A stretch of 64,000 nucleotides of DNA from Sphingobacteriales bacterium 44-15 (GTDB lineage Bacteria; Bacteroidota; Bacteroidia; Chitinophagales; Chitinophagaceae). Positions 5,469-56,575 of the stretch are shown piece after piece. The notes beneath the pieces are model-generated. The model made no database searches and was not told the DNA's origin. It saw only the letters and a program-made list of their open reading frames with translations. The stretch is taken from assembly GCA_001899685.1 (NCBI GenBank), contig MKWG01000003.1, positions 248,001-312,000 on the forward strand, in the 5' to 3' direction. The translations under genes were made by a program, and so were the position numbers. Each line of letters starts with the position of its first letter. Position 1 is the stretch's first letter.

Positions 5469-6518
5469 TTATTTTTTCTTTTTTAATGAGAGACGCAATT
5501 TTTTTACATAATCTACGGATACTCCGGCTATATCTGATATCTGGGCATCTGTAAATCCAGGTCTGCTGATAAGTTTTTTCACTACTTCATGACTTTTTTG
5601 TTCTACTCCCTTCTCCATACCTTTTTTTTCCGAAATCTTTGCTTTTTCTGCCGCAATTTTTACCTCTTCTTTCGCAATCTTTGCCTCTTCTTTTGCAGTC
5701 TTTGCCTCTTCTTTCGCAATCTTTGTCTCTTCTTTCGCGGTCTTTGCCTCTTCTTTCGCGGTCTTGATTTTTTCTTTCGCGGTCTCCCTTACCGCATAAT
5801 CAGTCCATTTATCTAAAAGGGCTTTTTCGTATAGCATATATTCCGTTTTTTTTAAGTTAGCTACTTCAGCTATATCAAACAATTTCTGAAATATCTTCTT
5901 GTGTAAAATTACAGGAATTTTTTCCATTTTTGCCATGTTGCGCAGCACGTACATCCATCGTTCAAGGTCAGTCTTTATGTCTTTTTCTTCTATGTTAAAA
6001 TTAGGCAACTCTAAAAAAATAAATCCCAGTTTGTTGTAAAAAGTTTGACCGGTTTCTTCCTCTGCCAGTCGCACCCGGTGCAGGTATTTTCCAGGCTGAA
6101 CATTCTCAAAGTTAAAATCCATTACAGCGATCAGATACACTTCTTTTAACTCAAAATCCCAGTTCTTTTTACCTTTTGGTCCCTGCTCGTATAATTTGCT
6201 CGCAGTGTAAAAAACAGCCCTGTCGGTAAAGAACTTCTGATCGGCTCTCTGTACCTCAATAATAAAAATTTCTCCGTCTTTCCCTGTGCAGATAAGGTCA
6301 AAAATGGTTTTGCGGTAATGCTGAACCGGACCATTATTTTCCTGCGGGTTATATACCAGGTCTTTTATTACCTTGCGTCCTTTAAATAATTCATTCAGGA
6401 AGGCAATCAGTAAGTCTTTATTAGGCTCAGATCCAAAGATCCTTTTGAAACCGAAATCGGTGAGCGGATCAATAAAACGGCCAATAAGCGGTGCGGTGTT
6501 TTTGCGGGTGTTTTTCAT
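5469..6518 (-). CDS. Rpn-family recombination-promoting nuclease / putative transposase (PD-(D/E)XK)
   Basis: 349-residue cytoplasmic protein of the Rpn (RpnA-like) family. The N-terminal signature TDFGFKRIFG is at 20-29 and the PD-(D/E)XK nuclease core is recognisable as FDLICTGKDGEIFIIEVQ, with D74, E88 and Q90 as likely catalytic positions. Residues 248-298 form a lysine/glutamate-rich coiled coil made of heptads of the AKEEAKT type, encoded by 21-base tandem repeats (5663-5788). A small helical tail follows. Family members cleave DNA and promote RecA-independent recombination, and are often found as mobile or multi-copy genes. It sits inside locus 1 between two oxidoreductase genes (62 and 76 bases away), with no terminal inverted repeats seen. 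A frameshifted relative lies at 22588-22650. Confidence 0.9.
   Translation of the reverse strand: MKNTRKNTAPLIGRFIDPLTDFGFKRIFGSEPNKDLLIAFLNELFKGRKVIKDLVYNPQENNGPVQHYRKTIFDLICTGKDGEIFIIEVQRADQKFFTDRAVFYTASKLYEQGPKGKKNWDFELKEVYLIAVMDFNFENVQPGKYLHRVRLAEEETGQTFYNKLGFIFLELPNFNIEEKDIKTDLERWMYVLRNMAKMEKIPVILHKKIFQKLFDIAEVANLKKTEYMLYEKALLDKWTDYAVRETAKEKIKTAKEEAKTAKEETKIAKEEAKTAKEEAKIAKEEVKIAAEKAKISEKKGMEKGVEQKSHEVVKKLISRPGFTDAQISDIAGVSVDYVKKLRLSLKKKK
5663..5788 (-). repeat. 21-base tandem repeat encoding coiled-coil heptads
   Basis: Six contiguous 21-base units lie inside the Rpn gene, with boundaries at 5663, 5684, 5705, 5726, 5747 and 5768. The first five differ by only a few bases; the sixth is more diverged. 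Each unit encodes one heptad of the AKEEAKT type. Confidence 0.9.
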
Positions 6519-14444: not shown

Positions 14445-14504
14445 CTGAATAAATTTGTCTTTTAAATGTCTGGTTAAATACTACGGTTATACGCTCACAA
14501 CAGG

Positions 14505-17500
14505 TTAGAAAGTAACATTTACCCCGATGTTATAATTTTTAACGATCGGGTATTCCTTGCCATCCTCTCCGGGCGAATGCTCAGGGTCAACAAATTTCAG
14601 CTTGGACCACGTTAACGGATTAAATGCGTTCACGTATACCCGTACTCTTTTAATGCCGGCTTTTCTCAGCATTTGTCCGGGCAGGCTGTAGCCGACTTCA
14701 AGGCTCTTTAAGCGAACATAGCTGGCATTGTATCTCCAAAACAGGGAAGGTCTGCCATTATAGGCTTTCGATAAAGTAGAAGGGTATTTTCCCGGAACCC
14801 ATGCGCTGGTTTTATCAAAAATGTCTTCCTTGTGCCACCTGTCCATAAATATATCCAGTCCGTTGCGGCCAAATGGTAAAGGATTTGTCCAGGATTCTGT
14901 GTACTCAACCCAATATTGAGATATGCCCTGAAACAGCATATTCAGATCAAATGCCTTCCATGACAAGCTGATGGTGGTGCCAAAATTGACTCCCGGGATC
15001 TGGTTATTGCGTGCAAGCGGATGGATATCATTATCGTCAATTCGGCCATCCTTATTATAGTCTTCATAAATAAGATCACCCGGCGACAAAGTAGTGTTTC
15101 CTACCTGATCCTGCAGAGGCGCTTTATCAATTTGTTCCTGCGAAGTAAATTGCCCCAATACACCGAATCCCCAGAACACATCGTTCCAGCGATTGGCCTG
15201 GTTGTTCCTCCAGTTATCGTATTGTGAAGAATAGTCCGCCTGCTCAAGGTATATATTCTTGGTGCGGGTAAAGGAGATATTCCCGGAAATGTTATAGCGT
15301 AACTTGCCAATGTTATTGGAATGGCTCAATGACACTTCGATACCCCTTGTCAGATCGCTGTTCAGGTTTTCCTGCGGTAAATAAGCGCCCACAGTGCCCG
15401 GAAGGCTTAACAGGCGATTAGCCAGCAGGCCTTTTCTCTTGCGCTGAAAAAAGTCAACCGAAAAACCAAGCTTTCCCATCCACAGGCTTCCATCCATACC
15501 GATATTGGAGGTAGAAGAAGTAAACCAGGTGATATTGGGATTGGCGATACCCGGCGGCGACAGCAGCGTCATTGGGATATTGTCGAAAACATAGTACAAA
15601 AGATCGCCATTGCCATTGCGGTCGTTCGGAGCAGGGTAGATATAACCCGAGAGGAACTGGAACGTACTGGCAGCGTCGTCACCCAGCTTGCCTTGCGATA
15701 CCCTGAGTTTCAAATTGGTGATCTGTGGGATATTATCTTTTATAAACGGTTCTTCAGAGATCCTCCATCCTGCGGAAATAGCCGGGAAGAATCCCCAGCG
15801 ATGCCCCGGGGCAAACTTTGATGAACCATCGTAGCGGAAACTGCCTTCCACCAGGTATTTGCCACGATAGTCGTAGTTCAACCTGCCCACATAGCCCTGA
15901 TTTGCGATCTTATTGACCGGTGTGCCATTCACGGTGAAAGTGGGGGATGAAGGAGAAGAGCCTATCTGCTGGCCAGCCGAGTTACCTGCATATAATTGAT
16001 CAAGTACACTCAGCGAAAACATCCTGCTGCCACTAAGATTTTCGAGGTTATATTGTGACTGTTCAAAAAGCCCCAGCAATTTAAAATTATGTTTTCCGCC
16101 GAAGGTCCTGCTATAATTCAACGATACCTGTACGTTGGAAAGCGATATTTCGTCGTACAACTCCGAAAGATTTCCCGGTGAATTCATCGTAACAGGCTCA
16201 TATATATCGTCTGCACTGTTGTAATTGTAGAGCAGGTATTGCTTTTGCCAGGTCTTCTGGAACAGGTATTTCAAGTCATAGCCATACATGAGTTTTGCAG
16301 TTAGCCCCTCGATAAAGGGAACTTCGTAAGTCAATCCAAAGTTTCCTTTGAAAGATTTGATGGCTTTTTTCTTATACCCGGATATTGACGCATTGGTTGC
16401 CGCCAGGGGATTGGATACATCACCTTCCACCTGATTTAAATAATCAGGATTGTTATTGGCGTATGCCGGAATGTTAGGTCTTGTTGTCCATAAAGATTTT
16501 AATATCAGCCATGTTTCCTGCCCCGGCTCCATCTTCTGGTCCCACATTCCGCTGAGCAGGATTTCTGCCTGCAGGCTTTTGGTAATATTCGCAGTAATAT
16601 TTGAACGGAGGTTGAATCTTTTGTAATTGAGATCGCCCGTCTTCCATACACCATCTTCTTTATAATATCCCAGAGAGGTAAAGTATTTGACCTTTTCATT
16701 TCCACCTGTTGCTATAAGGGTTTGCTGAGTCTGCGGAGCCAATTTGCGCATCACAAGGCTTTGCCAGTCTGTAGTGGGCAATGTCCCATCTTTATATTTT
16801 TCCAGTGTTTCCTGCGAATATACCGGCGGAAGGGTGCTACCCTGGTTTATATTAGCTTCGTCGGTAAGCAGTGCAAACTGATAGGCGTTCATTGGGGTAG
16901 GCTTGTCTATCGATGTTCCTCCAAAAGTGCCACTATAGCTCAGCTCTGTGGTTCCGGTCTTGCCTCTTTTGGTAGTGACCAGCAGTACGCCATTGGCAGC
17001 CCTTACTCCATATACAGCGGCTGAGGCGTCCTTGAGTATGGAAATGCTTTCAATTTCGTTGGGGTCAAGCCTGTTGAAATCGTCCCGGGGCACACCGTCT
17101 ACTATTATAAGCGGGCTTCCCAGTCCGCGGATATCAAAAGAGGTATTATAGTCACCAGGCTCAGCCGTTCTTTGTATGGCGCGAAAGCCCGGTAGCTTAC
17201 CGGTAAGCATATTCGTAATATTGCTGTTGGTAGTCGTTGTCAGTTCCTTACTACTAATGGATGACACTGCACCCGTAAGGTTTACTTTTTTCTCTTTTCC
17301 ATATCCCACTACTACCACATCACTCAAATCGGAAACCGCTTCCTCCATTACAATATTAAACACCTGTTGGCTTCCTGTTCTTATTGTTTGTGTGATATAT
17401 CCCACAAAAGAAAAAATCAGCTCTACCTTATTAGCAGAAGGTACAGATAACTGAAACCGGCCATCAGCATTGGTAGTGGTGCCCGTCTGCATACCTTTAA

Positions 17501-17972
17501 CCGTTACACTCACGCCTTCCAGTGGTTCATTTTTTGTATTTGTGACCCTGCCGGTAATATCAACAGGCGGCGGCATAGCCTTCATAATATTCTCTGCCGG
17601 CGGTGCAATTTCCGTCTCCTGCCTTATAACGATTATTTTCCCGACGATCTGGTAAACGAGGAACTGGTCTTTAAGACAAAGATCCATTACCTCGGGAACG
17701 GAGGCATTCTTTACATTGATGTCAACCGGGTGGGTTCCTTTCAATGCTGGTTCATCCCATATAAATGAAAATCCCGTTTGCAGCTTCACCTGGTTGAACA
17801 CCTGCTCCAGCGAAGCATTTTTAAGCGACAGGTTTACTTTCTGGGCAAGTCCCTCGGCATTGGCACAGAGGCTTGCAGCAATCAATAATACTGTTAATTT
17901 CATTGTCAACAGCGTTTGTTTTGGTATCCGGGTCAGTAAATGCCCGGCATTACAAAGAGCTTTAAAATGCAT
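14505..17972 (-). CDS. SusC/RagA-family TonB-dependent receptor with STN domain (locus 1)
   Basis: 1155-residue outer-membrane transporter. A 23-residue N-terminal extension precedes the typical signal peptide (MKLTVLLIAASLCANAEG). Next come an STN signalling domain at about 46-115, a carboxypeptidase-regulatory-like domain at about 135-215 (GRVTNTKNEPLEGVSVTVKG), the plug at about 225-345 (KVNLTGAVSSI), and the beta barrel ending in NVTF. The STN domain and the neighbouring sigma/fecR pair imply trans-envelope signalling as in FecARI. The ATG at 17972 was kept because the extension is open and similar extensions occur in the other two susC genes. A predicted antisense RNA lies just upstream. 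Confidence 0.95.
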   Translation of the reverse strand: MHFKALCNAGHLLTRIPKQTLLTMKLTVLLIAASLCANAEGLAQKVNLSLKNASLEQVFNQVKLQTGFSFIWDEPALKGTHPVDINVKNASVPEVMDLCLKDQFLVYQIVGKIIVIRQETEIAPPAENIMKAMPPPVDITGRVTNTKNEPLEGVSVTVKGMQTGTTTNADGRFQLSVPSANKVELIFSFVGYITQTIRTGSQQVFNIVMEEAVSDLSDVVVVGYGKEKKVNLTGAVSSISSKELTTTTNSNITNMLTGKLPGFRAIQRTAEPGDYNTSFDIRGLGSPLIIVDGVPRDDFNRLDPNEIESISILKDASAAVYGVRAANGVLLVTTKRGKTGTTELSYSGTFGGTSIDKPTPMNAYQFALLTDEANINQGSTLPPVYSQETLEKYKDGTLPTTDWQSLVMRKLAPQTQQTLIATGGNEKVKYFTSLGYYKEDGVWKTGDLNYKRFNLRSNITANITKSLQAEILLSGMWDQKMEPGQETWLILKSLWTTRPNIPAYANNNPDYLNQVEGDVSNPLAATNASISGYKKKAIKSFKGNFGLTYEVPFIEGLTAKLMYGYDLKYLFQKTWQKQYLLYNYNSADDIYEPVTMNSPGNLSELYDEISLSNVQVSLNYSRTFGGKHNFKLLGLFEQSQYNLENLSGSRMFSLSVLDQLYAGNSAGQQIGSSPSSPTFTVNGTPVNKIANQGYVGRLNYDYRGKYLVEGSFRYDGSSKFAPGHRWGFFPAISAGWRISEEPFIKDNIPQITNLKLRVSQGKLGDDAASTFQFLSGYIYPAPNDRNGNGDLLYYVFDNIPMTLLSPPGIANPNITWFTSSTSNIGMDGSLWMGKLGFSVDFFQRKRKGLLANRLLSLPGTVGAYLPQENLNSDLTRGIEVSLSHSNNIGKLRYNISGNISFTRTKNIYLEQADYSSQYDNWRNNQANRWNDVFWGFGVLGQFTSQEQIDKAPLQDQVGNTTLSPGDLIYEDYNKDGRIDDNDIHPLARNNQIPGVNFGTTISLSWKAFDLNMLFQGISQYWVEYTESWTNPLPFGRNGLDIFMDRWHKEDIFDKTSAWVPGKYPSTLSKAYNGRPSLFWRYNASYVRLKSLEVGYSLPGQMLRKAGIKRVRVYVNAFNPLTWSKLKFVDPEHSPGEDGKEYPIVKNYNIGVNVTF

Positions 17973-17983
17973 AACTTTGTCTG

Positions 17984-18080
17984 AGTTTGGTTAATAAATA
18001 AGCGGTCTTACACGATTGTTATTATTGAGTTAGCCTGAACTTCCGGCCAGGAGTGGTAGTGACACTTCTGGCTTTTTATT
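17984..18080 (+). ncRNA. Predicted antisense RNA over the susC leader, locus 1
   Basis: A Bacteroidota-type -7 box, TAACTTTG (17972-17979), begins exactly at the base complementary to the first base of the susC start codon and points away from susC. About 60 bases later a strong hairpin (18046-18072) is followed by TTTTTATT. Between them lies a block, GGTTAATAAATAAGCGGTC, shared with loci 2 and 3. The implied transcript is about 95 nt and antisense to the susC 5' leader. No clear -33 TTTG element is visible here. The 5' end is an estimate. Antisense RNAs linked to polysaccharide loci (DonS type) are known in Bacteroides; the assignment here is inference. Confidence 0.45.
18046..18080 (+). terminator. 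Intrinsic terminator of predicted antisense RNA, locus 1
   Basis: Ten-base stem GCCAGGAGTG / CACTTCTGGC (one G-T pair) with a 7-base loop, followed on the plus strand by TTTTTATT. On the minus strand the hairpin is not followed by a T run, so it is not a terminator for fecR. Confidence 0.7.
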
Positions 18081-18113
18081 CTGGTGTTAAATCAATCGGA
18101 TTATGTTTATTTA

Positions 18114-18184
18114 CCGTGAAAAGTGAAAAGACAAAAGTGAAAGAAGCACTTCACTTCTCACATCTCACGTCTCACGTTTGATAC
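18114..18184. repeat. GTGAAACG-type imperfect inverted repeat downstream of fecR, locus 1
   Basis: The left arm is made of GTGAAAAG/GTGAAAG words and the right arm of CTCACATCTCACGTCTCACG. The arms can fold back on each other imperfectly over about 30 bases. It sits between the fecR stop and the antisense RNA terminator. Related elements lie in the same position in loci 2 and 3. Confidence 0.7.
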
Positions 18185-18204
18185 AGCTCCATGCTATCCA
18201 TTAC

Positions 18205-19383
18205 TTACTGAACGATGACCTTACCATTATCAATCCTGGAATATATCCCGTACTGCTCAAGCGCTTTCAGCATATCCGGCAAACTGACGTCCCGGTTGAT
18301 CAAACCTCCAAAACTGGCTGCCGGCACTCCATTTTCATATTCCACCTGCACATCATACCACCTCGCTACCTGGCGCATCAGGGAGGCCAGGTCTGTGCCC
18401 TTCATCCGGAAATATCCTTCTTTCCATGACATCACCTGTTCCAGGTCAACACTGCCTTTCACGTCTATATTACCAGCTTTTACTATCGCCTGTTCGCCGG
18501 GCTTTATGGCTGCAGTGAATTGATAATTCGTTACCTGAACAGCGCCCTGCAGCAGTGTGATCCTGATATCCGCTTCATCATCGTAAGCATTTACATTAAA
18601 ACGCGTCCCTAATACCCTTACAGTCGTTTTCCCTTTACTCACCATAAAAGGCTTCGACGCATCGTGCGCTACCTCAAAATAAGCTTCACCCTCTACCGAA
18701 ACTCTTCTTTCATTTCCTGTAAAAGCAACAGGATAGGTAACCGACGATCCGGCATTCAGCCATACATGACTGCCATCAGCCAGTGTCATATCAATTACCC
18801 GGCTGCCACGGGGATTGAAAAGTGTATTGTAGCCCGCCGCTTCCTGCGGGGCGCCGGTTGCTTTATAAGCGATCTTCCCATCCTCCAGCTTCAGCAGCTT
18901 CACAGCTCCCTGAATAGTCAGCGATCCATTGGCAGCACTATCTAAATAGATCTTTTGCCCGTTGGCAAGCGTGATCATAGCCCGATTAATTCCCGGAGCC
19001 CCTATATCAGCAGGCAAAACGGACTTCACAATTTCCCGTGGTTGGCGCCCCTTATTGTATAAAAAAAAGTAGCCGCCCAACCCGATCACCAGCAAAACAG
19101 AGGCAGCAACTGCCAACCGTCTCCAAACAGTCCATCCCCTTTTGGCGGGCAGGCGATGCTCCGCTGCCTGCTTTTGCACTATCCGCTGAAAAATAGCATC
19201 AGCATCGCTCTCCGGCATATCCTTGTCTCCGGGCAACTCATCATAAAAGTCGTTAAGCATCTGAGCTTTCCTGCTTTCCAGTAAAGGATCCAGCCAAAGC
19301 TGAAACAGCTCTGTTTCTTCCGCATCAGTCAGGCCTTCGTACAGGTGCTTCCGGAATAGCTCTTCGAGGCGTTGCTCTTTCAT
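18205..19383 (-). CDS. FecR-family anti-sigma factor (locus 1)
   Basis: 392-residue inner-membrane anti-sigma regulator. The cytoplasmic N-terminal part begins MKEQRLEELF. One membrane segment is visible (LAVAASVLLVIGLGGYFFLY). The periplasmic FecR domain contains SHVWLNAGSSVTYP and EGEAYFEVAH, and a DUF4974-like C-terminal domain (LMRQVARWYDVQVEY) probably contacts the receptor's STN domain. The start is set at the ATG at 19383; the open frame extends 29 codons further upstream, but that part is unlike the family. It is preceded by the sigma gene with about 100 bases between and followed by susC. Confidence 0.93.
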   Translation of the reverse strand: MKEQRLEELFRKHLYEGLTDAEETELFQLWLDPLLESRKAQMLNDFYDELPGDKDMPESDADAIFQRIVQKQAAEHRLPAKRGWTVWRRLAVAASVLLVIGLGGYFFLYNKGRQPREIVKSVLPADIGAPGINRAMITLANGQKIYLDSAANGSLTIQGAVKLLKLEDGKIAYKATGAPQEAAGYNTLFNPRGSRVIDMTLADGSHVWLNAGSSVTYPVAFTGNERRVSVEGEAYFEVAHDASKPFMVSKGKTTVRVLGTRFNVNAYDDEADIRITLLQGAVQVTNYQFTAAIKPGEQAIVKAGNIDVKGSVDLEQVMSWKEGYFRMKGTDLASLMRQVARWYDVQVEYENGVPAASFGGLINRDVSLPDMLKALEQYGIYSRIDNGKVIVQ

Positions 19384-19485
19384 TAAGTAATTTAAATTTT
19401 CAGAATAAGGCAGGCTTGTACATTTTGTGCCTGCATACTTTAGACAAACGGGAAAACGCCCGGGGGCCATCAGGAAAAAAATAAT

Positions 19486-20076
19486 TCAGCGGAAACAAAT
19501 AGCAATAGCGAGCAATACAGCGGCGTCCATCCTGTGCTCCAGGAATATCCTGATGGAGCGAAGAGCGAGCTTCATATATTTTTTGGAAGTCAATACCGAT
19601 ATACCCAGTTGTTGGGCAATGGCTTCATGGCGCAATCCCTGCTGCCGGTAAAGAATATATACTTTTTGCTGCTGTGGCGGAAGCTGCCTGACGGCGGACT
19701 GCAATAGCAGGGAGTATTCCCTGTCGGCAACGTCGTTTTCTGTAAAGCAATTGCTGCTTTCCTGCGTTGGCAGGCGGTTAAGCCCCAATTTTTCCATTGC
19801 CCCGGCACGTATATAATTAATAGCGGTATTGCGGGCTATGGTACGGAGCCACGAATTGAAATAATCAACCTTTCGCAGTTGCTCCCGCTTTTCCCATATT
19901 CTCAGAAAGACATCCTGTACCAGCTCCTGTGCCTGGCTTTCAGATCTGGTGAGAAATAAACCCAGCGCATATATCTTTTTACGGTAATAGTCATACAGCA
20001 CCCTGAAAGCGGTTTCATCGCCTTCAGCTACCCGGAGCAACAGGTCTTTCTCATTATGCAGTGAATTCTGTTCCAA
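19486..20076 (-). CDS. FecI-type RNA polymerase sigma-70 factor (ECF, locus 1)
   Basis: 196-residue extracytoplasmic-function sigma factor. Region 2 is at about 25-90 (LVQDVFLRIWEKREQL, FNSWLRTIARNTAINY). Region 4 is at about 125-180 with the helix-turn-helix GLRHEAIAQQLGISVLTSKKYM. It should direct RNA polymerase to the susC promoter of locus 1 when released by FecR. The start codon appears to be TTG: no in-frame ATG lies near the N terminus, and an in-frame stop is five codons upstream. One copy of a 28-base direct repeat lies 69 bases upstream (20145-20172). Confidence 0.92.
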   Translation of the reverse strand: MEQNSLHNEKDLLLRVAEGDETAFRVLYDYYRKKIYALGLFLTRSESQAQELVQDVFLRIWEKREQLRKVDYFNSWLRTIARNTAINYIRAGAMEKLGLNRLPTQESSNCFTENDVADREYSLLLQSAVRQLPPQQQKVYILYRQQGLRHEAIAQQLGISVLTSKKYMKLALRSIRIFLEHRMDAAVLLAIAICFR

Positions 20077-20144
20077 AGCAAGCAGTCGCTAACGCTGAGA
20101 CAATGAAATTATCAAAAAATGAGTAAGATGCAAATTTATAATAT

Positions 20145-20172
20145 AAACTCCCCTAAAATAATTTCTGTCTAT
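20145..20172 (+). repeat. 28-base direct repeat, copy 1
   Basis: Begins AAACTCCCCTAAAATAA and matches 26 of 28 bases with 22563-22590 in the same orientation. The two copies flank the 750-residue cytochrome gene. Confidence 0.85.
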
Positions 20173-20213
20173 GGAAGAAGTGGGGAAGCATTGCAGGAAG
20201 AAAAGGGCTAAAA

Positions 20214-20234
20214 ACAATGAAATTTTTTCATTTG
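20214..20234 (-). terminator. AT-rich hairpin at the end of the cytochrome gene
   Basis: AATGAAA / TTTCATT stem overlapping the stop codon of the 20228-22480 gene, followed on the minus strand by GTTTTT. Weak stem, so only a tentative terminator. Confidence 0.35.
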
Positions 20235-22480
20235 TCCTTTATCTTGTCAGGCATATCCAATAAATCCTTTTCGGTTAGCGTTCCCTGCTTTTTATTTCTA
20301 AGTCCGTTTATTTCTTTAGCGCTGATACTTTTTACCGGAGTGGATACAAAACAATTTTGTAGATATTCAATGATATCGGATATGTCTTTATCACCAAAAT
20401 TATTTCCAAAATTGGGCATGCTACCATTAAAGTTGTATAGCTGTCCTTTCACATGCACAGGGCCTTCCAGACCATTTAAAATAATCATAGCTAATCTTTC
20501 CGGAGATCCTGCTACATATTCGGAACCTGTCAACGGCGGCGCAAGGTTCTCTATACCTTCCCCATCTACTCCATGACAGGTTGCACAAGTACTGCGAAAA
20601 ATAGCAAGCCCGTTTGTTCTTGAATCAACCGGAGCGGTATACGTAACAAAAATTGAATTCATTTTTCCTTCCTGCTTATTCTTAATAGTTACAGCTAATA
20701 AACTATCCAATGGCTTATAAGCATTTTTCTGATTGTTTGATTGAGCCATTACCTGGAATTTCTCTTCTAATCCTCTCAGGCTGTTAATTATCGCTTCATG
20801 GTAAATAGCCGTACCCGGATAAGTTTGAGATAATTTAAGAAGTACCGGAAAAAAAGCTTCATTGGAAACTTCTGCCCATGGACCTAATGAAAGTGCCAGG
20901 TACAGGTCAATAATACTATCTTTCCTGTTTAATAAATCATTTGCCAATGCTGCCATCGGCTTCACATTGTCTTTGGTATTATTCTTTTGCAGAAGAAGCA
21001 GGGCGTGCGCCGACAACATTGGATTTTGTGAAGCTGCTATTTTTTTTGTGAACTCAAAAGACAATGCATTAAGCCCGTCCAGTGTATGCAAGGCATGTAT
21101 GGCAGTTATGGGATTACTATTGTCCTGCGCCAGTTTCTCCAATTCAGGAACTACTGATTTTTGTTGTTTAAAGATCAATAATTGCTGAGCCCTGTCTCTC
21201 ACCCATCCATTCTTACTTTTTAATAATACAACCAATGCTTCTTCAGAGGCTTTATTAAGATCCGGAACCTTATCAAGCTTTTTGTCCTTGTACTTTACCC
21301 TTAATATACGCCCTTTGTGTAAGAGTGTATCAAGCTTTTTAACAGTTAATCCATTATTGTAATAAGGCGTTGAAAATGCGCCGTACTCCATAATGCCACG
21401 ATGCATATCTACCACATACATAGCGCCATCAGGGCCATTGTTTAGATTTACAGGACGAAAACCTTCATCCGTGGATGCAATAAATTCTTTATCATTCCAC
21501 GCCGGTTTTGCCGTTGTCTGGATAGCTCCAAATGTAAGGATATCCCGCTTCACAAGATTTGCCTGTGGTTCACACACAAAATAGTTTTGGTGGTAATCAT
21601 CAGGGAACTGATCGCCACGGTAAATTACGGGGCCGCAAGATGCGGTAACAGCTACCAGCAGGCTATCTTTATTCAATATCCCTTTTTCATAACCTCTGTT
21701 CACAGTAGTAGGATGTAAAGGATAAACGCTTTGGTCATTACTAAGCACTTTATTTATTGCTTCTTTGGGCTTTAGATAAGGATTGTTAATGATGGTATTG
21801 GGCAATACATAATCTCCTGCTATCTGTACTGAATTATAATTATAGTAAAGCCTTCCGTAATTATCCTGGCTGATTCCAAACTGACCACGAAATGAAGTAG
21901 GCTCTTTGATCCACTTGCCATCTCTCAGCTGGTACCTGAAGTTAGAATTTGCGCTGTAAATCCAATTGTCTATCCCCATCATAAGCCCATTAGGCTGAGC
22001 TTCAGGACTACCGCCTACAGCGTACAGCGAATCTACCAGAATTCTTTTGCCAGGTTTGTCATTGTTGATTTCTACAAACCAAAGATCGGGCGGAGCAGCA
22101 TATAAAAGGCCACCATAAACGAGTGACATAGCTCTCGGCAGTACCAGGCTATCTACAAACACTTTAGAATGGTCGGCCACGCCATCATCATCCCAATCTT
22201 CTAAAATACTGATCCTTCCATTAGGTATCGTATCTCCTATCCCTGATAGGTTTGGCATGAAGCCACGCATCTCAACCGCCCACATTCTACCCTCTCCATC
22301 AAAATCCATAGCCACCGGAGCTTCTATCAAGGGTTCTGCCGCAGCCAACTGTAACTCAAACCCATCCGCCACTTTATAGGTATCAAAAGATATAAAAGGA
22401 TTTTTATTAGAATTAGTATGACAACTAATAAGTAATACACTCATTGAAAAAAATAATATAAAAAAAACCTTAACCTGCAT
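20228..22480 (-). CDS. PVC-type beta-propeller / c-type cytochrome lipoprotein (750 aa)
   Basis: Lipoprotein (lipobox LLISC, Cys20) with an N-terminal beta-propeller of the membrane-bound dehydrogenase type (FELQLAAAEPLIEAPVAMDF; NNGPDGAMYVVDMHRG). A helical, HEAT-like middle part follows. The C-terminal cytochrome c domain has CATCH at 632-636 and a likely axial methionine in SMPN near 688. These proteins are usual in Planctomycetes/Verrucomicrobia and also occur in Bacteroidota; they probably oxidise sugars or alcohols and pass electrons to haem c, but activity is seldom proven. The base composition looks lower in GC than in the neighbouring 22718-25018 gene. The gene is flanked by a 28-base direct repeat and separated from locus 2 by 237 bases with an Rpn fragment, suggesting separate acquisition. 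Confidence 0.88.
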   Translation of the reverse strand: MQVKVFFILFFSMSVLLISCHTNSNKNPFISFDTYKVADGFELQLAAAEPLIEAPVAMDFDGEGRMWAVEMRGFMPNLSGIGDTIPNGRISILEDWDDDGVADHSKVFVDSLVLPRAMSLVYGGLLYAAPPDLWFVEINNDKPGKRILVDSLYAVGGSPEAQPNGLMMGIDNWIYSANSNFRYQLRDGKWIKEPTSFRGQFGISQDNYGRLYYNYNSVQIAGDYVLPNTIINNPYLKPKEAINKVLSNDQSVYPLHPTTVNRGYEKGILNKDSLLVAVTASCGPVIYRGDQFPDDYHQNYFVCEPQANLVKRDILTFGAIQTTAKPAWNDKEFIASTDEGFRPVNLNNGPDGAMYVVDMHRGIMEYGAFSTPYYNNGLTVKKLDTLLHKGRILRVKYKDKKLDKVPDLNKASEEALVVLLKSKNGWVRDRAQQLLIFKQQKSVVPELEKLAQDNSNPITAIHALHTLDGLNALSFEFTKKIAASQNPMLSAHALLLLQKNNTKDNVKPMAALANDLLNRKDSIIDLYLALSLGPWAEVSNEAFFPVLLKLSQTYPGTAIYHEAIINSLRGLEEKFQVMAQSNNQKNAYKPLDSLLAVTIKNKQEGKMNSIFVTYTAPVDSRTNGLAIFRSTCATCHGVDGEGIENLAPPLTGSEYVAGSPERLAMIILNGLEGPVHVKGQLYNFNGSMPNFGNNFGDKDISDIIEYLQNCFVSTPVKSISAKEINGLRNKKQGTLTEKDLLDMPDKIKDK

Positions 22481-22562
22481 ATAATAATTGTAGCTTTTTT
22501 TAAAATTAAGGATTCATTTTCTACATAAGCCCATTACGTTTTTGTTTTTTTATTATCTGCTG

Positions 22563-35258: not shown

Positions 35259-38200
35259 CTAAAAGCCCACACTTAACCCTACAACCAGTTCTTTTTGTAA
35301 AGGAATGATCGCTATTTGCTCGTCAAATTCGGGATCAATTCCTGTCCACCTGGTGAAAGTAAACTGGTTCCGCCCGGTCACATATACCCGTATCCGGTCA
35401 AAGCTCAACCTGGGGAGGAGTCTCCCGGGCAGATCGTAGGACAATGTGATGTCTTTGATACGAACAAATCCTGCTTTTTCCAATGCCATCGGCGATATTC
35501 CCTGTTGTAAATGGCCTTGCCAATCGTTGATCGGATCAGGAGCACCGGGATTTTCCGGCGTCCAGAAATCCTTTCTTGTAAAATTTTCTCTAACCGTCTG
35601 ACCTGCATCCGCAGCATCGGCAAAAATTGTCCTGTTAACCTTGGTCAGGCCATGTACGCCGTGGATAAATACAGAAAGTGTGAATTGCCGGTATGTGAGC
35701 GTATTGGTCAGCCCCCACAAAACCTTTGGATCTGTCTGTCCTACAATGCTGCGGTCATCAGATGTGATCTTACCATCCCCATTGATATCCTTCACTTTCA
35801 CAAAACCAGGCTTTGTCCCAAATTTTGCGGCTTCTTCAGCTTCATTCAGTTGCCACATTCCATCCCATACATAACCATAATTTATACGGATAGGCTTGCC
35901 GATAAACCATGCGCTGGCGACATCGTCAACCTCTTTTCCGTCTTTATCTAATTCGCCGTAGAGGGATACGATTTTGTTTCGTGTATAAGAGATATTAGTA
36001 TAAGTTTTCCATTGAAAATTTTTCCCTGATACGTTTTTAGAATTCAGCGACAATTCCCATCCTTTGTTCTGGGTTTTACCGATATTTTGCGTGATAGATC
36101 CAAAGCCCTGTACCGGAGAAATAGTACGATTGAGCAGCAAGTCGAAAGTATTGGTACGGTAGAAATTGATATCGCCGGTCAGCCTGTCGTTGAGTATGCC
36201 AAAATCAAGCCCGATATTCAGCGTTTTGGAGGATTCCCATCCAAGATTATCCATACCGAGCGTGGAAGGTCTGTAGCCCGCTAAAGCCGAAGTACCGTTG
36301 ATATAGTTGCTTTCTGTCAGCCGGGCTATAGTTTGATAGGCTCCGATGGCCTGGTTGCCATTTAGCCCATAGGATACCCGGAGCTTCAGCTCACTGATTG
36401 TCTCTTTATAGGGGCGGAAAAAACCTTCACGGGATATATTCCATCCCAATGCGAGCGATGGGAAAGTACCCCACTTTGTTTTCGCTCCAAAACCGGAGAA
36501 CCCGTCTCTTCGTCCCGTAAGCGTAAGCAGGTAGCGGCTGTTATAAGTATAGTTTAAACGGAGCATTTGCGAAAGCAACACTGTTTCCGAATAGGAATAC
36601 TGGGGATTTCTGCTTGAAGCCTGGGCTGCAGCATACCAAGACAGAAAATCGTTGGGAAATCCTTTCGACACTAATTTATCAGTGCTGTTTTTTTGAGACT
36701 CGTAGCTATATACACCGGTCAAGAACAGACTGTGCTTTCCGAATCTCCTTGTATAGCTCAATATATTCTCAATAATGGTGCTGTTGCTGCGGTCTCTGCC
36801 TGTAGTGGCGGATCCCTGCGATGCAAACCCCGAAGTAGTGTTACGCCCCCAATAAGAGTTGGCATCGTGAAACCTGGCTTTTATGCCGCTCTCAAACCGG
36901 TATTGCAATCCGGGAATGAAAGGCACAGCAACAGTAGCATAGTTATTGGCAAGCACCTGGAAGGATTTATCCATGTTTTTGGCCAAAATATTTTGTAACG
37001 GGTTGGCAAAGTAGTGGTCTTCCGGCCACGGATAGAGCGTAAGATTATCTTTCTCGTCATAAGCCTGGGTAAGCGGATTGATCCAAAAGATCTCTTCGCC
37101 GGGAGGGATCCCCGCTAAGTTGTCATACGAAAGTTGAGTGCGGGTACCTATAGATAACCAGTTCGTAATTTTTGTATCCAGGTTGATGCGGGAAGTGAGC
37201 CGGGAATAATCGTCCTTCACGGCCAGCCCCTGTACTTTTAAATACGCGCCGGAAAAATAATATTTAGTATTCTGGGTGCCCCCCGAAACAGACACATTAT
37301 GCTCCGTATTTTGTCCCTTCCGTAAAGCCAGGTTGATCCAGTCAGAATACTTACCCGACTCATAGGTGTCCTTTTCTGTCTGAGTGATATATTGAGGCCC
37401 ACGTTCCAGCTTCATCTCATAAAACTCTTTGCCACTCATTAAATCCGGAAATTTCACAAAGTCCTGCTGCGAATAATAGCCGGTGTATGATATTTTCGGT
37501 TTCCCTTCCTTGCCCAATTTAGAAGTGATCAGGATTACACCATTGGCTCCCCTGGAACCATAAATAGCTGCTGCTGATGCATCTCTCAGCACCTCAATTG
37601 ATGCAATATCATTCGGATTCAGGTCTTTCAATTCACCGGTATACGCTACCCCGTCCAGCACAATCAATGGAGAATTATCTGCCAGTATTGAATTACGACC
37701 CCGGATCATGATGGACTGTTCGCTAACGGCTCCTCCTGCAGAAGTCTGCACCATTACTCCCGGAAGCGCTCCCTGTATAGCTTGTGCAATATTCAGATTC
37801 GGCACCATTTCCAGGCGTTCTTTTCCTATCGAAGCTACCGCTCCTGTCAGGTCACTCTTCTTTTGAGTGCCATACCCTACTTCTACTACCACATCATCCA
37901 ATACCGTGGATAATGCTTCCATCACAATATTCAAACTGGTGCCGCCGCCGATGGTCACTTCTTTTTGCTCATATCCTATGGAACTGAACACCAGGATATC
38001 TCCCCGTTTCGCTTCGATCGAAAAATTTCCTGAAGCATCTGTCTGGGTACCCTTACCCGTGGCTTTAACTATTACTGTTACTCCTGCAAGCGGATTCCCT
38101 TTTCCATCTTTCACCACGCCTGTTATTCCTATAGCCTGCTCCTCCTCAATTGTTTCTTCCGGTGGTATCCCGTCTTTCTTTGGGCGATTACCCGCTATGG

Positions 38201-38588
38201 TAATAAAAATAGTTTTACCCTGTATGCTGTATCGCAGGGGCTGCCCTTTTAATATTTCCTGCAGGGCTGTTGCAAGGGGTGTATTCCTGAAAGAAACGGA
38301 AACAGCCGGCAAACCAGTGAGGTCTTCCTCACGGTAGAAGAATACATACCCCGTCTGTTGCTTGATAATAACAAAAACCTTTTCCAGGCTGACGGATTCT
38401 GCAGCATAAGTAATCGTCTGCGCATTGGATTTCGCTGCCGTTTGCAATATGGCAGCAAGCAGTAAAACAATCGTTAGCTTCATAACTAACAGTATCCTGC
38501 GTAACCCTGCAGGACAGGTTTTGGTAAAGATCTCTGCTGCGCCCGTCCCAAAAGACACGGAGGGCTTGTAAAGAGATTTAATTTGCAT
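35259..38588 (-). CDS. SusC/RagA-family TonB-dependent receptor with STN domain (locus 2)
   Basis: 1109-residue outer-membrane transporter. A 35-residue N-terminal extension precedes a signal peptide (MKLTIVLLLAAILQTAAKS). Then come an STN domain at about 60-130 (VSLEKVFVIIKQQTGYVFFY), a carboxypeptidase-regulatory-like domain at about 155-230, the plug (QKKSDLTGAVASIGKE), and a barrel ending LSVGF. The STN domain couples it to the FecR/sigma pair upstream. It is more divergent from the other two receptors than they are from each other in the regulatory-like domain. ATG start at 38588, at the edge of a predicted antisense RNA promoter. Confidence 0.95.
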   Translation of the reverse strand: MQIKSLYKPSVSFGTGAAEIFTKTCPAGLRRILLVMKLTIVLLLAAILQTAAKSNAQTITYAAESVSLEKVFVIIKQQTGYVFFYREEDLTGLPAVSVSFRNTPLATALQEILKGQPLRYSIQGKTIFITIAGNRPKKDGIPPEETIEEEQAIGITGVVKDGKGNPLAGVTVIVKATGKGTQTDASGNFSIEAKRGDILVFSSIGYEQKEVTIGGGTSLNIVMEALSTVLDDVVVEVGYGTQKKSDLTGAVASIGKERLEMVPNLNIAQAIQGALPGVMVQTSAGGAVSEQSIMIRGRNSILADNSPLIVLDGVAYTGELKDLNPNDIASIEVLRDASAAAIYGSRGANGVILITSKLGKEGKPKISYTGYYSQQDFVKFPDLMSGKEFYEMKLERGPQYITQTEKDTYESGKYSDWINLALRKGQNTEHNVSVSGGTQNTKYYFSGAYLKVQGLAVKDDYSRLTSRINLDTKITNWLSIGTRTQLSYDNLAGIPPGEEIFWINPLTQAYDEKDNLTLYPWPEDHYFANPLQNILAKNMDKSFQVLANNYATVAVPFIPGLQYRFESGIKARFHDANSYWGRNTTSGFASQGSATTGRDRSNSTIIENILSYTRRFGKHSLFLTGVYSYESQKNSTDKLVSKGFPNDFLSWYAAAQASSRNPQYSYSETVLLSQMLRLNYTYNSRYLLTLTGRRDGFSGFGAKTKWGTFPSLALGWNISREGFFRPYKETISELKLRVSYGLNGNQAIGAYQTIARLTESNYINGTSALAGYRPSTLGMDNLGWESSKTLNIGLDFGILNDRLTGDINFYRTNTFDLLLNRTISPVQGFGSITQNIGKTQNKGWELSLNSKNVSGKNFQWKTYTNISYTRNKIVSLYGELDKDGKEVDDVASAWFIGKPIRINYGYVWDGMWQLNEAEEAAKFGTKPGFVKVKDINGDGKITSDDRSIVGQTDPKVLWGLTNTLTYRQFTLSVFIHGVHGLTKVNRTIFADAADAGQTVRENFTRKDFWTPENPGAPDPINDWQGHLQQGISPMALEKAGFVRIKDITLSYDLPGRLLPRLSFDRIRVYVTGRNQFTFTRWTGIDPEFDEQIAIIPLQKELVVGLSVGF

Positions 38589-38599
38589 ACTTTTACATT

Positions 38600-38689
38600 G
38601 TTTAGGTTAAGTAATAAGCAGTCATGCCCGTTAATCATTAGCCTGAATAAAGCCGGGTAAGGGTCCAATCTTCTCCCGGTTTTTATTTT
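38600..38689 (+). ncRNA. Predicted antisense RNA over the susC leader, locus 2
   Basis: The -7-like box TACTTTTA (38588-38595, one mismatch to TAnnTTTG) starts at the base opposite the A of the susC ATG. A TTG lies 19 bases before it (38566-38568), suitable as a -33 element. The conserved block GGTTAAGTAATAAGCAGTC and TAGCCTGA follow. A hairpin (38653-38679) with TTTTTATTTT ends it. The predicted length is about 90 nt. The layout is the same as at loci 1 and 3. Confidence 0.48.
38653..38689 (+). terminator. Intrinsic terminator of predicted antisense RNA, locus 2
   Basis: CCGGG / CCCGG stem with an inner AAG / CTT extension, followed on the plus strand by TTTTTATTTT. The stem is shorter than at loci 1 and 3. 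Confidence 0.6.
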
Positions 38690-38732: not shown

Positions 38733-38804
38733 TCGTGAAACGTCAGAAGTCAACCGTGAAAATCTCACCTTTCACTTCTCAAGTCTCACGTTTCACGTTT
38801 GACA
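38733..38804. repeat. GTGAAACG-type imperfect inverted repeat downstream of fecR, locus 2
   Basis: GTGAAACGTCAGAAGTC on the left and CTCACGTTTCACGTTTGAC on the right form an imperfect hairpin. It ends five bases from the fecR stop codon at 38809. Same position and vocabulary as 18114-18184 and 56615-56768. Confidence 0.7.
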
Positions 38805-40063: not shown

Positions 40064-40129
40064 GGGCTTGGGGCGATGGGCTTTGAGCAATGAGCTTGGG
40101 GCTGCAAACCGGTGGCTCATAGCTGATGC
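40064..40129. repeat. GCTCATAGCTG-type word at the end of the locus 2 sigma gene
   Basis: Degenerate repeats of GGGCTTGGGGCGATGGGC and GCTCATAGCTGATGC run up to and into the 3' end of the sigma gene. The last residues HQL and the stop codon are read from the repeat. Confidence 0.55.
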
Positions 40130-40701: not shown

Positions 40702-40917
40702 TTGGGGCAATGAAACGTTTTTGAGGCTTGAAATTATGGAAAATTAATGACTATCAGAGATTGGGATTATGCCAGGATGAACGAGCGCTTTTCAAATTAG
40801 TCAGGCAGGCGTGCCTGCAAAACATGGAATACCCATTGGACTTCAACGAGAGAATGGATTGTTTGTAAATATAGATTATCATGAGCGTTACAAAATCATC
40901 AGCCTGTTGTAGTAATT

Positions 40918-41015: not shown

Positions 41016-41283
41016 AAAAGCATTGATAATTTTCGCGCTTTCATTATCGTTAAAATTACAGGATAATCAGCCCCTTTCACCGGGCGACGAGAGCACCCCG
41101 AACGTTCGGTTTGGATCGCAGAATACGTGCTAAGGTCGGGAGAAACAATCTCCACATCATTCATTCTTCCGGCACGTGGAGACAAGTGCCACCGGCAGGA
41201 ATTCTTTTCTACTTAATTCGCTTCACTCATCAGGGCTGGCTCCACAGACGATGACAGTAGCACCACAGCCCGTCCCCCAAAAT

Positions 41284-53066: not shown

Positions 53067-56000
53067 TTATTTAAGATTTAAGATTACACCAAAAGTAAAA
53101 GTCTTCACATTGGGATAAGATCCAGCCTCCGTTTGACCACTATATTGAACGTCCTCATCTCTTTCAGGATCGTTAATTGTATATGGTGCATAAGTAAGCC
53201 AGTTGTCAGCGGATATGTACATTCTCAAATTTTCAATACCAATTTTGCCGGTAATTTTAGGAGGTAAGGTATATCCTAATTGCATATTCTTCAAGCGGAC
53301 ATATGAGGTGTTTTTTAGAAAATAGGAATTATCAGTACCTGATACCGGGTTATACGGCCAGGCATAAAGAGCAGGCATCTTATTTGTATGATTTTCGGGA
53401 GTCCACGCCTGTCTCCATTCCTCCGTTGGCGGTGCCATTCTAAGGAATGGCCATTCTCCCCGCCTGGTTATATAATGTCTTGTTCCTGAAACGCCCTGGA
53501 TAAAAACAGACAAGTCCAAACTCCGCCAGTTTAGGCGTATATTCCCACCGTAAATAAATTTAGGGTACCTGCCAGGAAGGATAACTCTATCATCTGCAGT
53601 AATTTTGCCATCTTTGCTTTGGTCTTTAAATTTAAGGTCTCCGGGTTGAGAATTATACTGTGGAGTCGGACCTGAACTAATTTCTTCCCCAGATTGATAT
53701 ATTCCAATCCATTCCAACATATAGTAAGCACCATATTCGTACCCCACCTGGTTGGAATTCAGACCATAGGATGGAGTTATCAGCTTGGTAATTTTATTAC
53801 GGTTATGAGAAAAATTCACATCAACAGAATAACCCAATTTCCTTATCTTACCACGATGCCCTATAGTAAACTCAAAACCTTTATTATTCAGGGAACCATA
53901 ATTTATGGTCGGCGCTGACAACCCGACTGAGGCAGGTATTTCGGCCGTATTTAAAATACCGGATGTGTTTTTGTCATAGATATCGAAAACAAGAGAAAAT
54001 AATCCCTGTTTTATATCCAGATCAATGCCTAAATTTTGAATAGTGGTAATTTCCCATTTCAGGTTCGGATCAGATAAAGCAGATCTTAAAACTCCTTGTT
54101 GAACACCGGTACCCTGCGCATAATTGGTTGTTGTTAAAAGAGATTGGTATGGATAGGTGCCAATATTCTGATTTCCCAATTGGCCCCAGGAGGCTCTTAC
54201 TTTCAAGTTATCCAACCAATCGCTTGACTTCAAAAAATTTTCTTCAGATATCCTCCATCCCAAAGAAAATGAAGGAAATAATCCCCATCTGTTATTTTTC
54301 TGAATCCTTGAGGTGCCATCATATCTTGCGTTAGCCTCAAATAAATACTTCCCATTATAATTGTATCCTAATCTTCCAAAAAATGATTGAATTGACCATT
54401 CTGATGAGGTTCCGTTTAACGTTTGAACGGAAGGGTCTCCCGCATTTAATTCAGAAAGATTTGGAAAACTATAATCCCTCCGTTGTCCATAAAGACTTCT
54501 TATTTTATACTGCTCTTGACTATACCCTACCAACGCTGACATATTATGCGATCCAGGCAAAACTTTTGTATAGTTTAAAGTTGAATAAACCGAAGGCATA
54601 ATAAACCTCGACCAGGAATCTTCAACGCCAAGTTTTGTTACCGCCATAACTTTCGCAAAATTCCTCGATTGAAAATAATACTCATTGCCATCTGCAGGTA
54701 TTCGCTGATGAATTTTTCCGAAGCTCTCATTATAAGCGTAAGAACCTGTTACATTCCATAATAATTCAGGTAATAGCTTAATATTCACAAAACCATTTGC
54801 GGTAATCGAATATTTTTCATCAATAGCTGTACCCCCATCTCCATCAGTATCAGTTAACCTCATGGGATTTCCTGTCATAAAGTAAGGAGCACTCACAGAT
54901 CCAACTGACCATCTTCCATCAGGTAAATGTGGGGATGTGGTCGGATTCATGTCATAAATAGTCTGTATCAGGGCTATAGAATTTGTTGCAGGTCCGTGTT
55001 TTTTTCCAAAAAGCATATTAATATTGGTACCAAAAGTTATCCAATCCGTTATTTTGGTATCCAAGTTAAATTGTGCATTATACCTCTTATAAGATTGCCC
55101 TCTTACAATTGCATCCTGATCATAATAACTAACATCTGTGAAATACTTAGTCTTATCATTTCCTCCCCTAATGCCTATACTGTGCCTCTGACCCCAACCA
55201 GGATTAAATATTGCATCTCTCCAATCAAAGTTTGGATATTGAGGATCGCCTGGAGTGGCATTTTTATATGCGCTGATTAATGCCTCGGGAAACTTTTGAC
55301 CAGTACCTTGCCTATCCACGGTATAATTCCACATTTCCATATATTCTGCAGAATTAGATATAAACTTAGGAATAAAAGTAGGGGTTTGAAAACCAATACT
55401 GCCGTTATAACTAATACTACGTTTATCAATAATGCCCTTTTTTGTAGTAACAAGAATAACTCCGTTTGCAGCCCTTGCGCCATAGATAGAAGCCGAAGCG
55501 GCATCTTTTAAAATATCTATGGTTTCAATATTTCCGGGATCAAGATTGTCTAACCCATCCCATGATGGATATGCAATTCCATCAACAACTACTAATGGAT
55601 TACTTCCAGCCGAACTAAAAGTCCCCTGTCCACGAATTGCAATTTTAAGTTTTTCGTTCCCGGGCTCACCTGATTGCTGGATGATTTGTACGCCTGAAGC
55701 TCTACCCTGAATTAAACTTGTAACAGAGTAACTCGGGCGCTTTGTTAATTCTTCAGCTTTAATACTTGATATTGCCCCTGTTAAATTGACCTTTTTCTGA
55801 GTTCCATACCCAACCACCACTACATCCGTTAAATCAGCGATCGCCTCCTCCAATACGATATTAAACACAGTCCGGATCCCTGCTTTTATCGTTTGTGCTG
55901 CATATCCCACAAAAGAAAAAACCAGTTCGACATTAGCTGAAGGTACAGACAACCGGAACCGCCCGTCCGCATCAGTAGTAGTCCCTGTCTGGGTACCTTT

Positions 56001-56471
56001 GACGGTCACGCTCACCCCTTCCAGCGGTTCTTTCCTTGCATTGGTCACCCTACCGCTAAGGTTGATATCTGTGGGAGGAGGAGGCACAGGTACTGCATCA
56101 GGTACTGCTGCTGTTGCCGCTTTCACTACGATCAGCCGCTTATCTATAGTATAAGTTAAGGATTGATTGCGCAGGCACTCACTCATTACATCTTCAATAC
56201 TTGCATCTTTTACGGTAAAAGACACTGTTTTGGCTTTTCTCAAAATTCCTTCGTCCCACAGGAAGGAATAGCCGGTTTGTTTCTTGATCTCACTAAAGAC
56301 GCGCTTCAGCGTACTGTTTTTGACGGAAAGACTGATCTGCTGAGCGTAAACATTGGCACTCGCCTGTAGACATGTTGCAAAAAGCAAAATGACGATCAAC
56401 TTCATAATTAACAGTGTTTTGGCCATAATCTTCCCCGATGGCAGGGGAAGGTCACAAAAGAAAATTTGCAT
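53067..56471 (-). CDS. SusC/RagA-family TonB-dependent receptor with STN domain (locus 3)
   Basis: 1134-residue outer-membrane transporter. A 22-residue extension precedes the signal peptide (MKLIVILLFATCLQASANV). The STN domain is at about 45-115 (STLKRVFSEIKKQTGYSFLW), the carboxypeptidase-regulatory-like domain at about 135-215 (GRVTNARKEPLEGVSVTVKG), then the plug (KKVNLTGAISSIKAEEL) and a barrel ending GVILNLK. The regulatory-like domain is strikingly similar to that of locus 1. The DNA changes from moderate GC in the first 600 bases to AT-rich in the remainder, suggesting a mosaic gene. ATG start. Confidence 0.95.
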   Translation of the reverse strand: MQIFFCDLPLPSGKIMAKTLLIMKLIVILLFATCLQASANVYAQQISLSVKNSTLKRVFSEIKKQTGYSFLWDEGILRKAKTVSFTVKDASIEDVMSECLRNQSLTYTIDKRLIVVKAATAAVPDAVPVPPPPTDINLSGRVTNARKEPLEGVSVTVKGTQTGTTTDADGRFRLSVPSANVELVFSFVGYAAQTIKAGIRTVFNIVLEEAIADLTDVVVVGYGTQKKVNLTGAISSIKAEELTKRPSYSVTSLIQGRASGVQIIQQSGEPGNEKLKIAIRGQGTFSSAGSNPLVVVDGIAYPSWDGLDNLDPGNIETIDILKDAASASIYGARAANGVILVTTKKGIIDKRSISYNGSIGFQTPTFIPKFISNSAEYMEMWNYTVDRQGTGQKFPEALISAYKNATPGDPQYPNFDWRDAIFNPGWGQRHSIGIRGGNDKTKYFTDVSYYDQDAIVRGQSYKRYNAQFNLDTKITDWITFGTNINMLFGKKHGPATNSIALIQTIYDMNPTTSPHLPDGRWSVGSVSAPYFMTGNPMRLTDTDGDGGTAIDEKYSITANGFVNIKLLPELLWNVTGSYAYNESFGKIHQRIPADGNEYYFQSRNFAKVMAVTKLGVEDSWSRFIMPSVYSTLNYTKVLPGSHNMSALVGYSQEQYKIRSLYGQRRDYSFPNLSELNAGDPSVQTLNGTSSEWSIQSFFGRLGYNYNGKYLFEANARYDGTSRIQKNNRWGLFPSFSLGWRISEENFLKSSDWLDNLKVRASWGQLGNQNIGTYPYQSLLTTTNYAQGTGVQQGVLRSALSDPNLKWEITTIQNLGIDLDIKQGLFSLVFDIYDKNTSGILNTAEIPASVGLSAPTINYGSLNNKGFEFTIGHRGKIRKLGYSVDVNFSHNRNKITKLITPSYGLNSNQVGYEYGAYYMLEWIGIYQSGEEISSGPTPQYNSQPGDLKFKDQSKDGKITADDRVILPGRYPKFIYGGNIRLNWRSLDLSVFIQGVSGTRHYITRRGEWPFLRMAPPTEEWRQAWTPENHTNKMPALYAWPYNPVSGTDNSYFLKNTSYVRLKNMQLGYTLPPKITGKIGIENLRMYISADNWLTYAPYTINDPERDEDVQYSGQTEAGSYPNVKTFTFGVILNLK

Positions 56472-56482
56472 ACTTTTGTACA

Positions 56483-56575
56483 GTTTTGGGTTAAAGAATA
56501 AACAGTTCAGACAATTGTTTTTACCTGACTCAAATCCTGCCGGATCCCGGAGCGAACGGAATCCGGCTTTTTATT
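56483..56575 (+). ncRNA. Predicted antisense RNA over the susC leader, locus 3
   Basis: An exact -7 box, TACTTTTG (56471-56478), starts at the base opposite the A of the susC ATG. The block GGGTTAAAGAATAAACAGTT and CCTGA follow as in loci 1 and 2. A strong hairpin (56539-56567) and TTTTTATT end it, giving about 93 nt. No clear -33 TTTG is visible. The rest of the argument is as for the other two loci. Confidence 0.47.
56539..56575 (+). terminator. Intrinsic terminator of predicted antisense RNA, locus 3
   Basis: GCCGGAT / ATCCGGC stem extended by TCC / GGA with a one-base bulge, followed on the plus strand by TTTTTATT. No T run follows it on the minus strand. Confidence 0.75.

Follow-up and report, generated by a model that had tools for sequence, protein, structure and literature searches.

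The element facing the start codon of susC genes in this genome is probably a DonS-type cis-antisense RNA gene that lowers basal susC expression, a reading to which we give a probability of roughly 0.8. DonS antisense RNAs were reportedly first described by Cao et al. in 2016, and an earlier note on this DNA had proposed a family of that type from three copies; some 40 copies are found in the genome. We use "the window" for the whole 64,000-nucleotide stretch of DNA that was analysed, and G000 for the 6.0-Mb assembly that contains it. The element opposite susC 1 comprises a predicted promoter box, a 5' hairpin and a terminator, arranged with the neighboring genes as follows (window coordinates).

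14505..17972, minus strand: susC 1, with Pfam domains STN, CarboxypepD_reg and Plug; its leader is complementary to the predicted RNA
17972..17979, plus strand: predicted antisense -7 box TAACTTTG, of the sigma-ABfr type TAnnTTTG (consensus from PMC7366714)
17983..18042, plus strand: 5' hairpin P1, from fold and covariation
17985..18080, plus strand: predicted antisense RNA of ~96 nt, its 5' end placed from the box and its 3' end from the T tail
18045..18080, plus strand: intrinsic terminator, a stem-loop at 18045-18073 and a T tail to 18080, from fold, terminator scan, covariance model R1 and covariation
18205..19470, minus strand: fecR 1, upstream of susC 1 (Pfam)
19486..20076, minus strand: ECF sigma factor gene 1 (Pfam)

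The first base of TAACTTTG lies opposite the A of the susC 1 ATG, in line with the earlier note, which had the box begin opposite the start codon, and the overlap between box and gene is this one base. P1 consists of an outer pairing of 17983-17995 with 18029-18035 and 18037-18042, and an inner stem formed by 17997-18007 and 18014-18026; its first two bases precede the predicted 5' end of the RNA. The terminator stem (18045-18055 with 18063-18073) contains 11 pairs including two G.U, or 10 pairs with one G.U once the outer G.U is excluded, in agreement with the 10-bp hairpin described previously, and the element ends with T5ATT at 18073-18080. The hairpin was considered as a terminator of fecR and ruled out, as the note had also argued, because no T run follows it on the fecR strand. 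In a scan of 14500-22500 for sigma-70 promoters and terminators, this antisense terminator scored best; overall, the scan yielded numbers at chance level, with 15 promoters versus 15.8 expected and 8 terminators versus 7.9.

Two further copies lie opposite the other susC genes of the window, and both were training sequences for R1.

35259..38588, minus strand: susC 2, STN-type (Pfam: STN, CarboxypepD_reg, Plug)
38588..38688, plus strand: second element copy, opposite susC 2, with box TACTTTTA at 38588-38595, terminator and TTTTTATT; R1 score 62.0 bits
38809-39987, minus strand: fecR upstream of susC 2 (Pfam)
40117-40710, minus strand: ECF sigma gene upstream of susC 2 (Pfam)
53067..56471, minus strand: susC 3, STN-type (Pfam: STN, CarboxypepD_reg, Plug)
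56471..56575, plus strand: third element copy, opposite susC 3, with box TACTTTTG at 56471-56478, terminator and TTTTTATT; R1 score 73.0 bits
56774-57976, minus strand: fecR upstream of susC 3 (Pfam)
58196-58771, minus strand: ECF sigma gene upstream of susC 3 (Pfam)

Each of the three susC genes is preceded by fecR and an ECF sigma gene in the same orientation (3/3), as judged from a Pfam domain search of the window proteins. The layout that the earlier note described as common to the three genes stands, while the boxes themselves read TACTTTTA and TACTTTTG at loci 2 and 3; likewise, the shared block is present across loci, with the locus 3 version reading GGTTAAAGAATAAACAGTT. The T5ATT tail occurs at all three genes, and the hairpin distances of 74, 65 and 68 bases from the ATG given there are accurate to 3 bases, the exact value varying with the choice of first pair. 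Fold z-scores at loci 1, 2 and 3 are -4.56, -4.92 and -2.98 on the plus strand and -1.00, -0.75 and -3.38 on the minus strand, so that locus 3 alone fails to separate the strands. Among the 36 window ORFs taken as likely genes, out of 45 listed, an in-frame ATG after [CT]AAAnnT, the complement of the box, is confined to the three susC genes, and this start context is therefore not a general translation-start motif. A known Rfam family was ruled out: Rfam 15 gave no match in the window at gathering scores and none for 9 element loci at E<=1.

The window also contains repeats. Degenerate GTGAGACGTGAGA repeats give 17 matches with up to 2 mismatches versus 0.46 expected by chance (sites at 18156-18175, 31048-31060, 38735-38796, 56660-56768 and 58125-58144); 14 of the 17 are intergenic, between a fecR gene and the nearby antisense RNA terminator, and the repeats look like a dispersed intergenic repeat. 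A tandem repeat with 21/42/63-base units occupies 5618-5785 within the minus-strand ORF 5469-6518, and about two near-identical tandem copies of 47 bases (96% matches) are found at 41282-41384 in a gap between ORFs.

A survey of SusC starts in G000 revealed that the element belongs to one kind of receptor gene. TIGR04056 scored 56 SusC genes among 160 candidates, so the genome total exceeds the 56 used here, and the start regions of all 56 were examined. Forty have an N-terminal extension of >100 aa before the family match and are termed STN-type; the remaining 16 lack it. The antisense box TAnnTTT[GA] is positioned at the start codon of 32/40 STN-type genes, being absent by this pattern from 8, versus 0/16 other susC genes, and a strict antisense terminator lies within 170 bases of the ATG in 31/40 versus 1/16; shuffled controls gave a mean of 0.75/40 terminators and at most 4 in 40 rounds. 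Eight of the nine STN loci without a strict terminator have a hairpin by eye, the exception being L048. A FecR-like ORF is found within 4 kb upstream of 37/40 STN-type and 0/16 other genes, with a median of 171 bases from its stop to the susC ATG. Given these contrasts in box, terminator and FecR, the element tracks the sigma/FecR/STN arrangement in this genome, not susC as such. Chance is ruled out by the shuffles, the other susC genes and the other window ORFs, and a hidden small protein by the scarcity of closed ORFs of >=15 aa, which occur in only 3/31 predicted RNAs. The terminators are also not of a generic kind, as 5 of the 6 places in the genome that match CCGGNAGTG..CACTNCCGG are family terminators, and an RTG..CAY apex is present in 16/31 family terminators versus 0/66 control hairpins (and in 0/6 B. 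fragilis terminators). Separately, the extension-less susC L044 (G000:C43:566125-566239) has a strong upstream antisense terminator and a weak R1 match (E 0.008), and may carry a decayed or displaced copy.

We built the covariance model R1 from the 28 copies of alignment A2. Searching G000 at E<=1 returned 35 matches, the 28 training copies plus 7 more, of which five start exactly across from an STN-type susC ATG, one is located at the end of a contig and the last at an extension-less susC (E 0.008). R1 misses all 12 STN loci of G000 that were left out of A2 (L032, L035, L047, L048, L052, L058, L059, L060, L071, L075, L079 and L081), so it models a subtype; most of these 12 still have an antisense hairpin and T run, and a second RNA subtype probably exists.

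Outside G000, the position of the element relative to the start codon is conserved. At E<=0.001, R1 matches 41/98 genomes of the family, G000 included; of the 40 others, loci were obtained for 29, one locus each, representing 28 other genera and one other species of the same genus. In all 29 loci, an ATG is located exactly opposite R1 base 1 and opens an STN-type N terminus, two with an early stop, STN type being judged by eye from the N terminus at R1-found loci outside the training set. In a sample of 395 genomes from the phylum, 22 match under a strict filter, and among 24 loci (10 from the same family and 14 from other families) the ATG is exactly opposite base 1 in 22 and four bases off in 2. 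STN-susC genes chosen by protein in 29 non-own genomes have the box at an in-frame ATG in 21/29, a strict terminator within 200 bases in 21/29 and both in 17/29, against 0.6/29 in a shuffle control; an in-frame ATG with a box was preferred here, which favours the box, and the start was moved at one locus (L372). Outside the window's family, the same set gives 17/21 for the box and 15/21 for the terminator, and both features are missing from the one locus sampled in each of families f2 and f11. At E<=0.001, R1 finds no match in 7 named Bacteroides, Phocaeicola, Chryseobacterium and Bergeyella genomes; six weak matches (E 0.007-0.66) in four of the named genomes all lie away from susC starts.

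The A2 alignment, 28 of the 40 STN loci chosen by hand for the shared block, supports two helices: a 5' stem formed by GTTTGGGTTAA with TTAACCCAAAC, and the terminator. Two-sided changes occur in 15/20 pairs, a number reached by 9/500 shuffles, and P1 on its own contributes 6/9. Paired cells amount to 83.1% versus 67.5% in shuffles (0/500 as high) and drop to 34-55% when the pairing partners are shifted. On the antisense strand, A2 contains 78 G.U versus 12 A.C cells, and in A3, a set of 29 held-out sequences, the antisense consensus contains 64 G.U versus 4 A.C cells. Folded singly, the A3 sequences have a mean z of -4.22 on the antisense and -1.95 on the sense strand (antisense lower in 28/29); for 14 loci of other families the values are -3.36 and -2.24 (antisense lower in 13/14). 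By the G.U versus A.C wobble asymmetry, the fold belongs to the antisense strand.

A similar layout is seen in B. fragilis Q1F2, where 50 of 56 SusC starts were taken and 49 counted, L323 having no ATG. Twenty-three genes, including near-identical copies on two replicons, have an N-terminal extension of >85 aa, and the box lies at the ATG in 11/23 of these versus 0/26 others. A strict terminator scan over 260 bases finds 8/23 versus 1/26, with two of the eight (L310 and L311) at distances above 220 bases. When folded, 12 copies selected by eye form a 5' hairpin and a terminal hairpin, 77-120 nt in total length, with the antisense z lower in 9/12 and the sense z lower in 3/12. R1 detects no B. 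fragilis copy at E<=0.001, and its one weak match (E 0.007) is located away from susC; because the model misses these copies, either they have diverged in sequence or the resemblance is in part convergent. No antisense box is present at six extended B. fragilis genes (L297, L310, L311, L321, L322 and L336), two of which belong to the second replicon, and five of them share the antisense-strand start context CATAAATACGATTAATTATTAG.

The predicted antisense promoter overlaps the beginning of the gene. TAnnTTTG is the sigma-ABfr -7 consensus according to PMC7366714. A TTG is found 22-23 bases before the box, close to the position expected of a -33 element, in 18/105 loci versus ~4.6 expected from other offsets, and offset 15 also has 8/105, so the -33 signal is weak. 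Because the -7 box faces the ATG and the -33 region lies on the susC side, the ATG and first codons fall inside the predicted promoter. The conserved block next to the ATG might have a role in susC translation as well. On the sense strand, an ECF-like promoter upstream of the antisense terminator gives a weak signal, at 10/40 STN-type versus 0/16 other genes and 3.7 +- 1.7 for shuffled sequence (at most 9 over 100 rounds); the three window loci are not among these ten.

Three other explanations compete with the antisense RNA gene. The conserved sequence could be a sense-strand element, combining a translation-start context, CAAAnnTATG, with a structured 5' leader of the susC mRNA. The locking of the element to the ATG (29/29) fits this, as do a somewhat structured sense strand with a mean z of about -2 and the three of 12 B. 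fragilis copies in which the sense z is lower. We nevertheless consider it highly improbable: the held-out wobble pairs fall on the antisense strand as given above, the A3 sense consensus has just 7 pairs with 4 G.U and 17 A.C cells, the T runs follow the hairpin on its antisense side, with strict sense-strand terminators in 0/40 STN-type and 0/16 other susC genes, and the start context is missing from the extension-less susC genes (0/16). A sense-leader structure as such was rejected on the wobble asymmetry and the lack of sense T runs.

Short head-on antisense transcription might instead hamper susC by interference only, with the RNA itself inert. In favour of this, a comparison of one locus in two congeneric species shows the box and terminator as the best-kept parts, 100% identical against 85-89% for the coding sequence and flanks other than the first 15 susC codons (93.3%). 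The RNA body is kept as well, at 92.7%, and P1 covaries in its own right, and the pure form of interference requires no folded product; we regard it as unlikely. An equally small likelihood attaches to a largely trans mode of action, in which the shared GUUUGGGUUAA..AAUAA block would pair with many susC leaders in a network arbitrating nutrient loci. Predicted duplexes of -18 kcal/mol or better form in 35% of 1560 pairs, compared with 17% of 240 for shuffled RNAs and 11% of 640 for leaders of other susC genes, and the shared terminator sequence hardly occurs outside the family, to which 5 of its 6 genomic sites belong. The excess is modest, however, the block is already paired inside P1, common descent accounts for its sharing, and cis pairing is far stronger, with a mean of -78.6 kcal/mol. 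The broadest version, in which the straddling antisense promoter and folded RNA are standard in the sigma/FecR/STN-SusC arrangement class-wide and ~40 loci cross-repress receptors via the shared block as a genome-wide network, is doubtful.

The DonS-type reading drew its support from the strand-specific covariation and the exact start-codon placement in held-out genomes, and it also fits the restriction to fecR-linked susC genes here and the matching arrangement found at some susC genes of B. fragilis. Conservation of the hairpin and T tail at homologous loci, which the earlier note had named as a test capable of refuting its proposal, was examined and left the reading standing.

Among known systems, CopA/CopT is a plasmid copy-control antisense RNA, and like the RNA predicted here, whose repressive role is presumed, it is short and folded and represses a gene to whose leader it is complementary. 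The same likeness reportedly extends to RNAII of pMV158 (PMC4485353). Unlike the plasmid copy-control RNAs, the present element is chromosomal, occurs at tens of paralogous loci and is tied to a trans-envelope signalling receptor.

The closest known counterparts are in Bacteroides. In PMC7366714, the class is described as 78-128 nt cis-antisense RNAs that are divergent to susC homologs and affect them negatively; such RNAs are reported for 15 PULs in B. fragilis (PMC9723704) and for 32 in B. thetaiotaomicron (PMC10994844), where some asRNA/susC pairs are anti-correlated and others positively correlated, the positive ones weighing against the present reading. Repression of the cognate susC locus by DonS is reported in B. 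fragilis (PMC7366714 and PMC11697453), the second source calling its mechanism unknown. The DonS type shares with the present element its placement facing the 5' region of a susC homolog and divergent from it, recognized here from sequence alone, and its length (box and T tail put the RNA predicted here at ~96 nt), as well as an ECF sigma/anti-sigma locus, an association pieced together from separate passages rather than taken from a printed definition. In B. fragilis Q1F2, the same box-at-ATG and two-hairpin layout is present at 11-12 susC genes, not matched singly to published RNAs; about half of the extended genes there have the element, unlike G000, where nearly all STN-type susC genes examined do. 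Expression has been shown for the Bacteroides RNAs, whereas the G000 element belongs to another lineage and is predicted from its DNA.

Rfam contains structured RNAs of the same phylum, such as Flavo-1 (named in PMC9723704), but none matches here. The same source describes 287 antisense-overlapping transcribed regions in Flavobacterium psychrophilum. Our search, which covered little subscription literature and not the F. psychrophilum antisense tables, found susC-leader antisense families described from no group other than Bacteroides, and nothing relevant in the literature on Chitinophaga. In the literature consulted, some of it in part, PUL-associated antisense RNAs are known in Bacteroides, and neither wider conservation nor a fixed start-codon geometry is mentioned.

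We propose that each element is a noncoding cis-antisense RNA gene of roughly 80-120 nt, expressed from a housekeeping (sigma-ABfr) promoter that would straddle the susC start codon, with the ATG between its -33 and -7 regions, and fire away from susC. The RNA would begin ~13 bases upstream of the ATG (sense view), fold into a 5' hairpin and a terminator hairpin, and end before fecR; with these ends, it would be complementary to the start-adjoining susC leader. By pairing with this leader, the RNA may keep basal susC expression low, and head-on transcription across ~90 bp would probably contribute. When the nutrient is present, a signal through the receptor, FecR and the ECF sigma factor would drive strong sense transcription. 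Sense transcription would read across the antisense promoter, so strong ECF-sigma induction should silence that promoter by occlusion and would also titrate the RNA; the outcome would be a switch with a threshold.

Such a switch suits STN-type TonB receptors, which signal for their own induction: protection from leaky feedback by a threshold would account for the presence of the element at their genes and its absence from the others. If the pattern holds, the device is old and nearly universal in this genome for FecR/ECF-sigma-linked receptors, with an antisense promoter that spans the susC start codon in a fixed register. The covariance model finds one subtype from sequence and predicts the positions of its 5' ends. 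If true, the arrangement would constitute a testable switch in which sense transcription turns off its own repressor.
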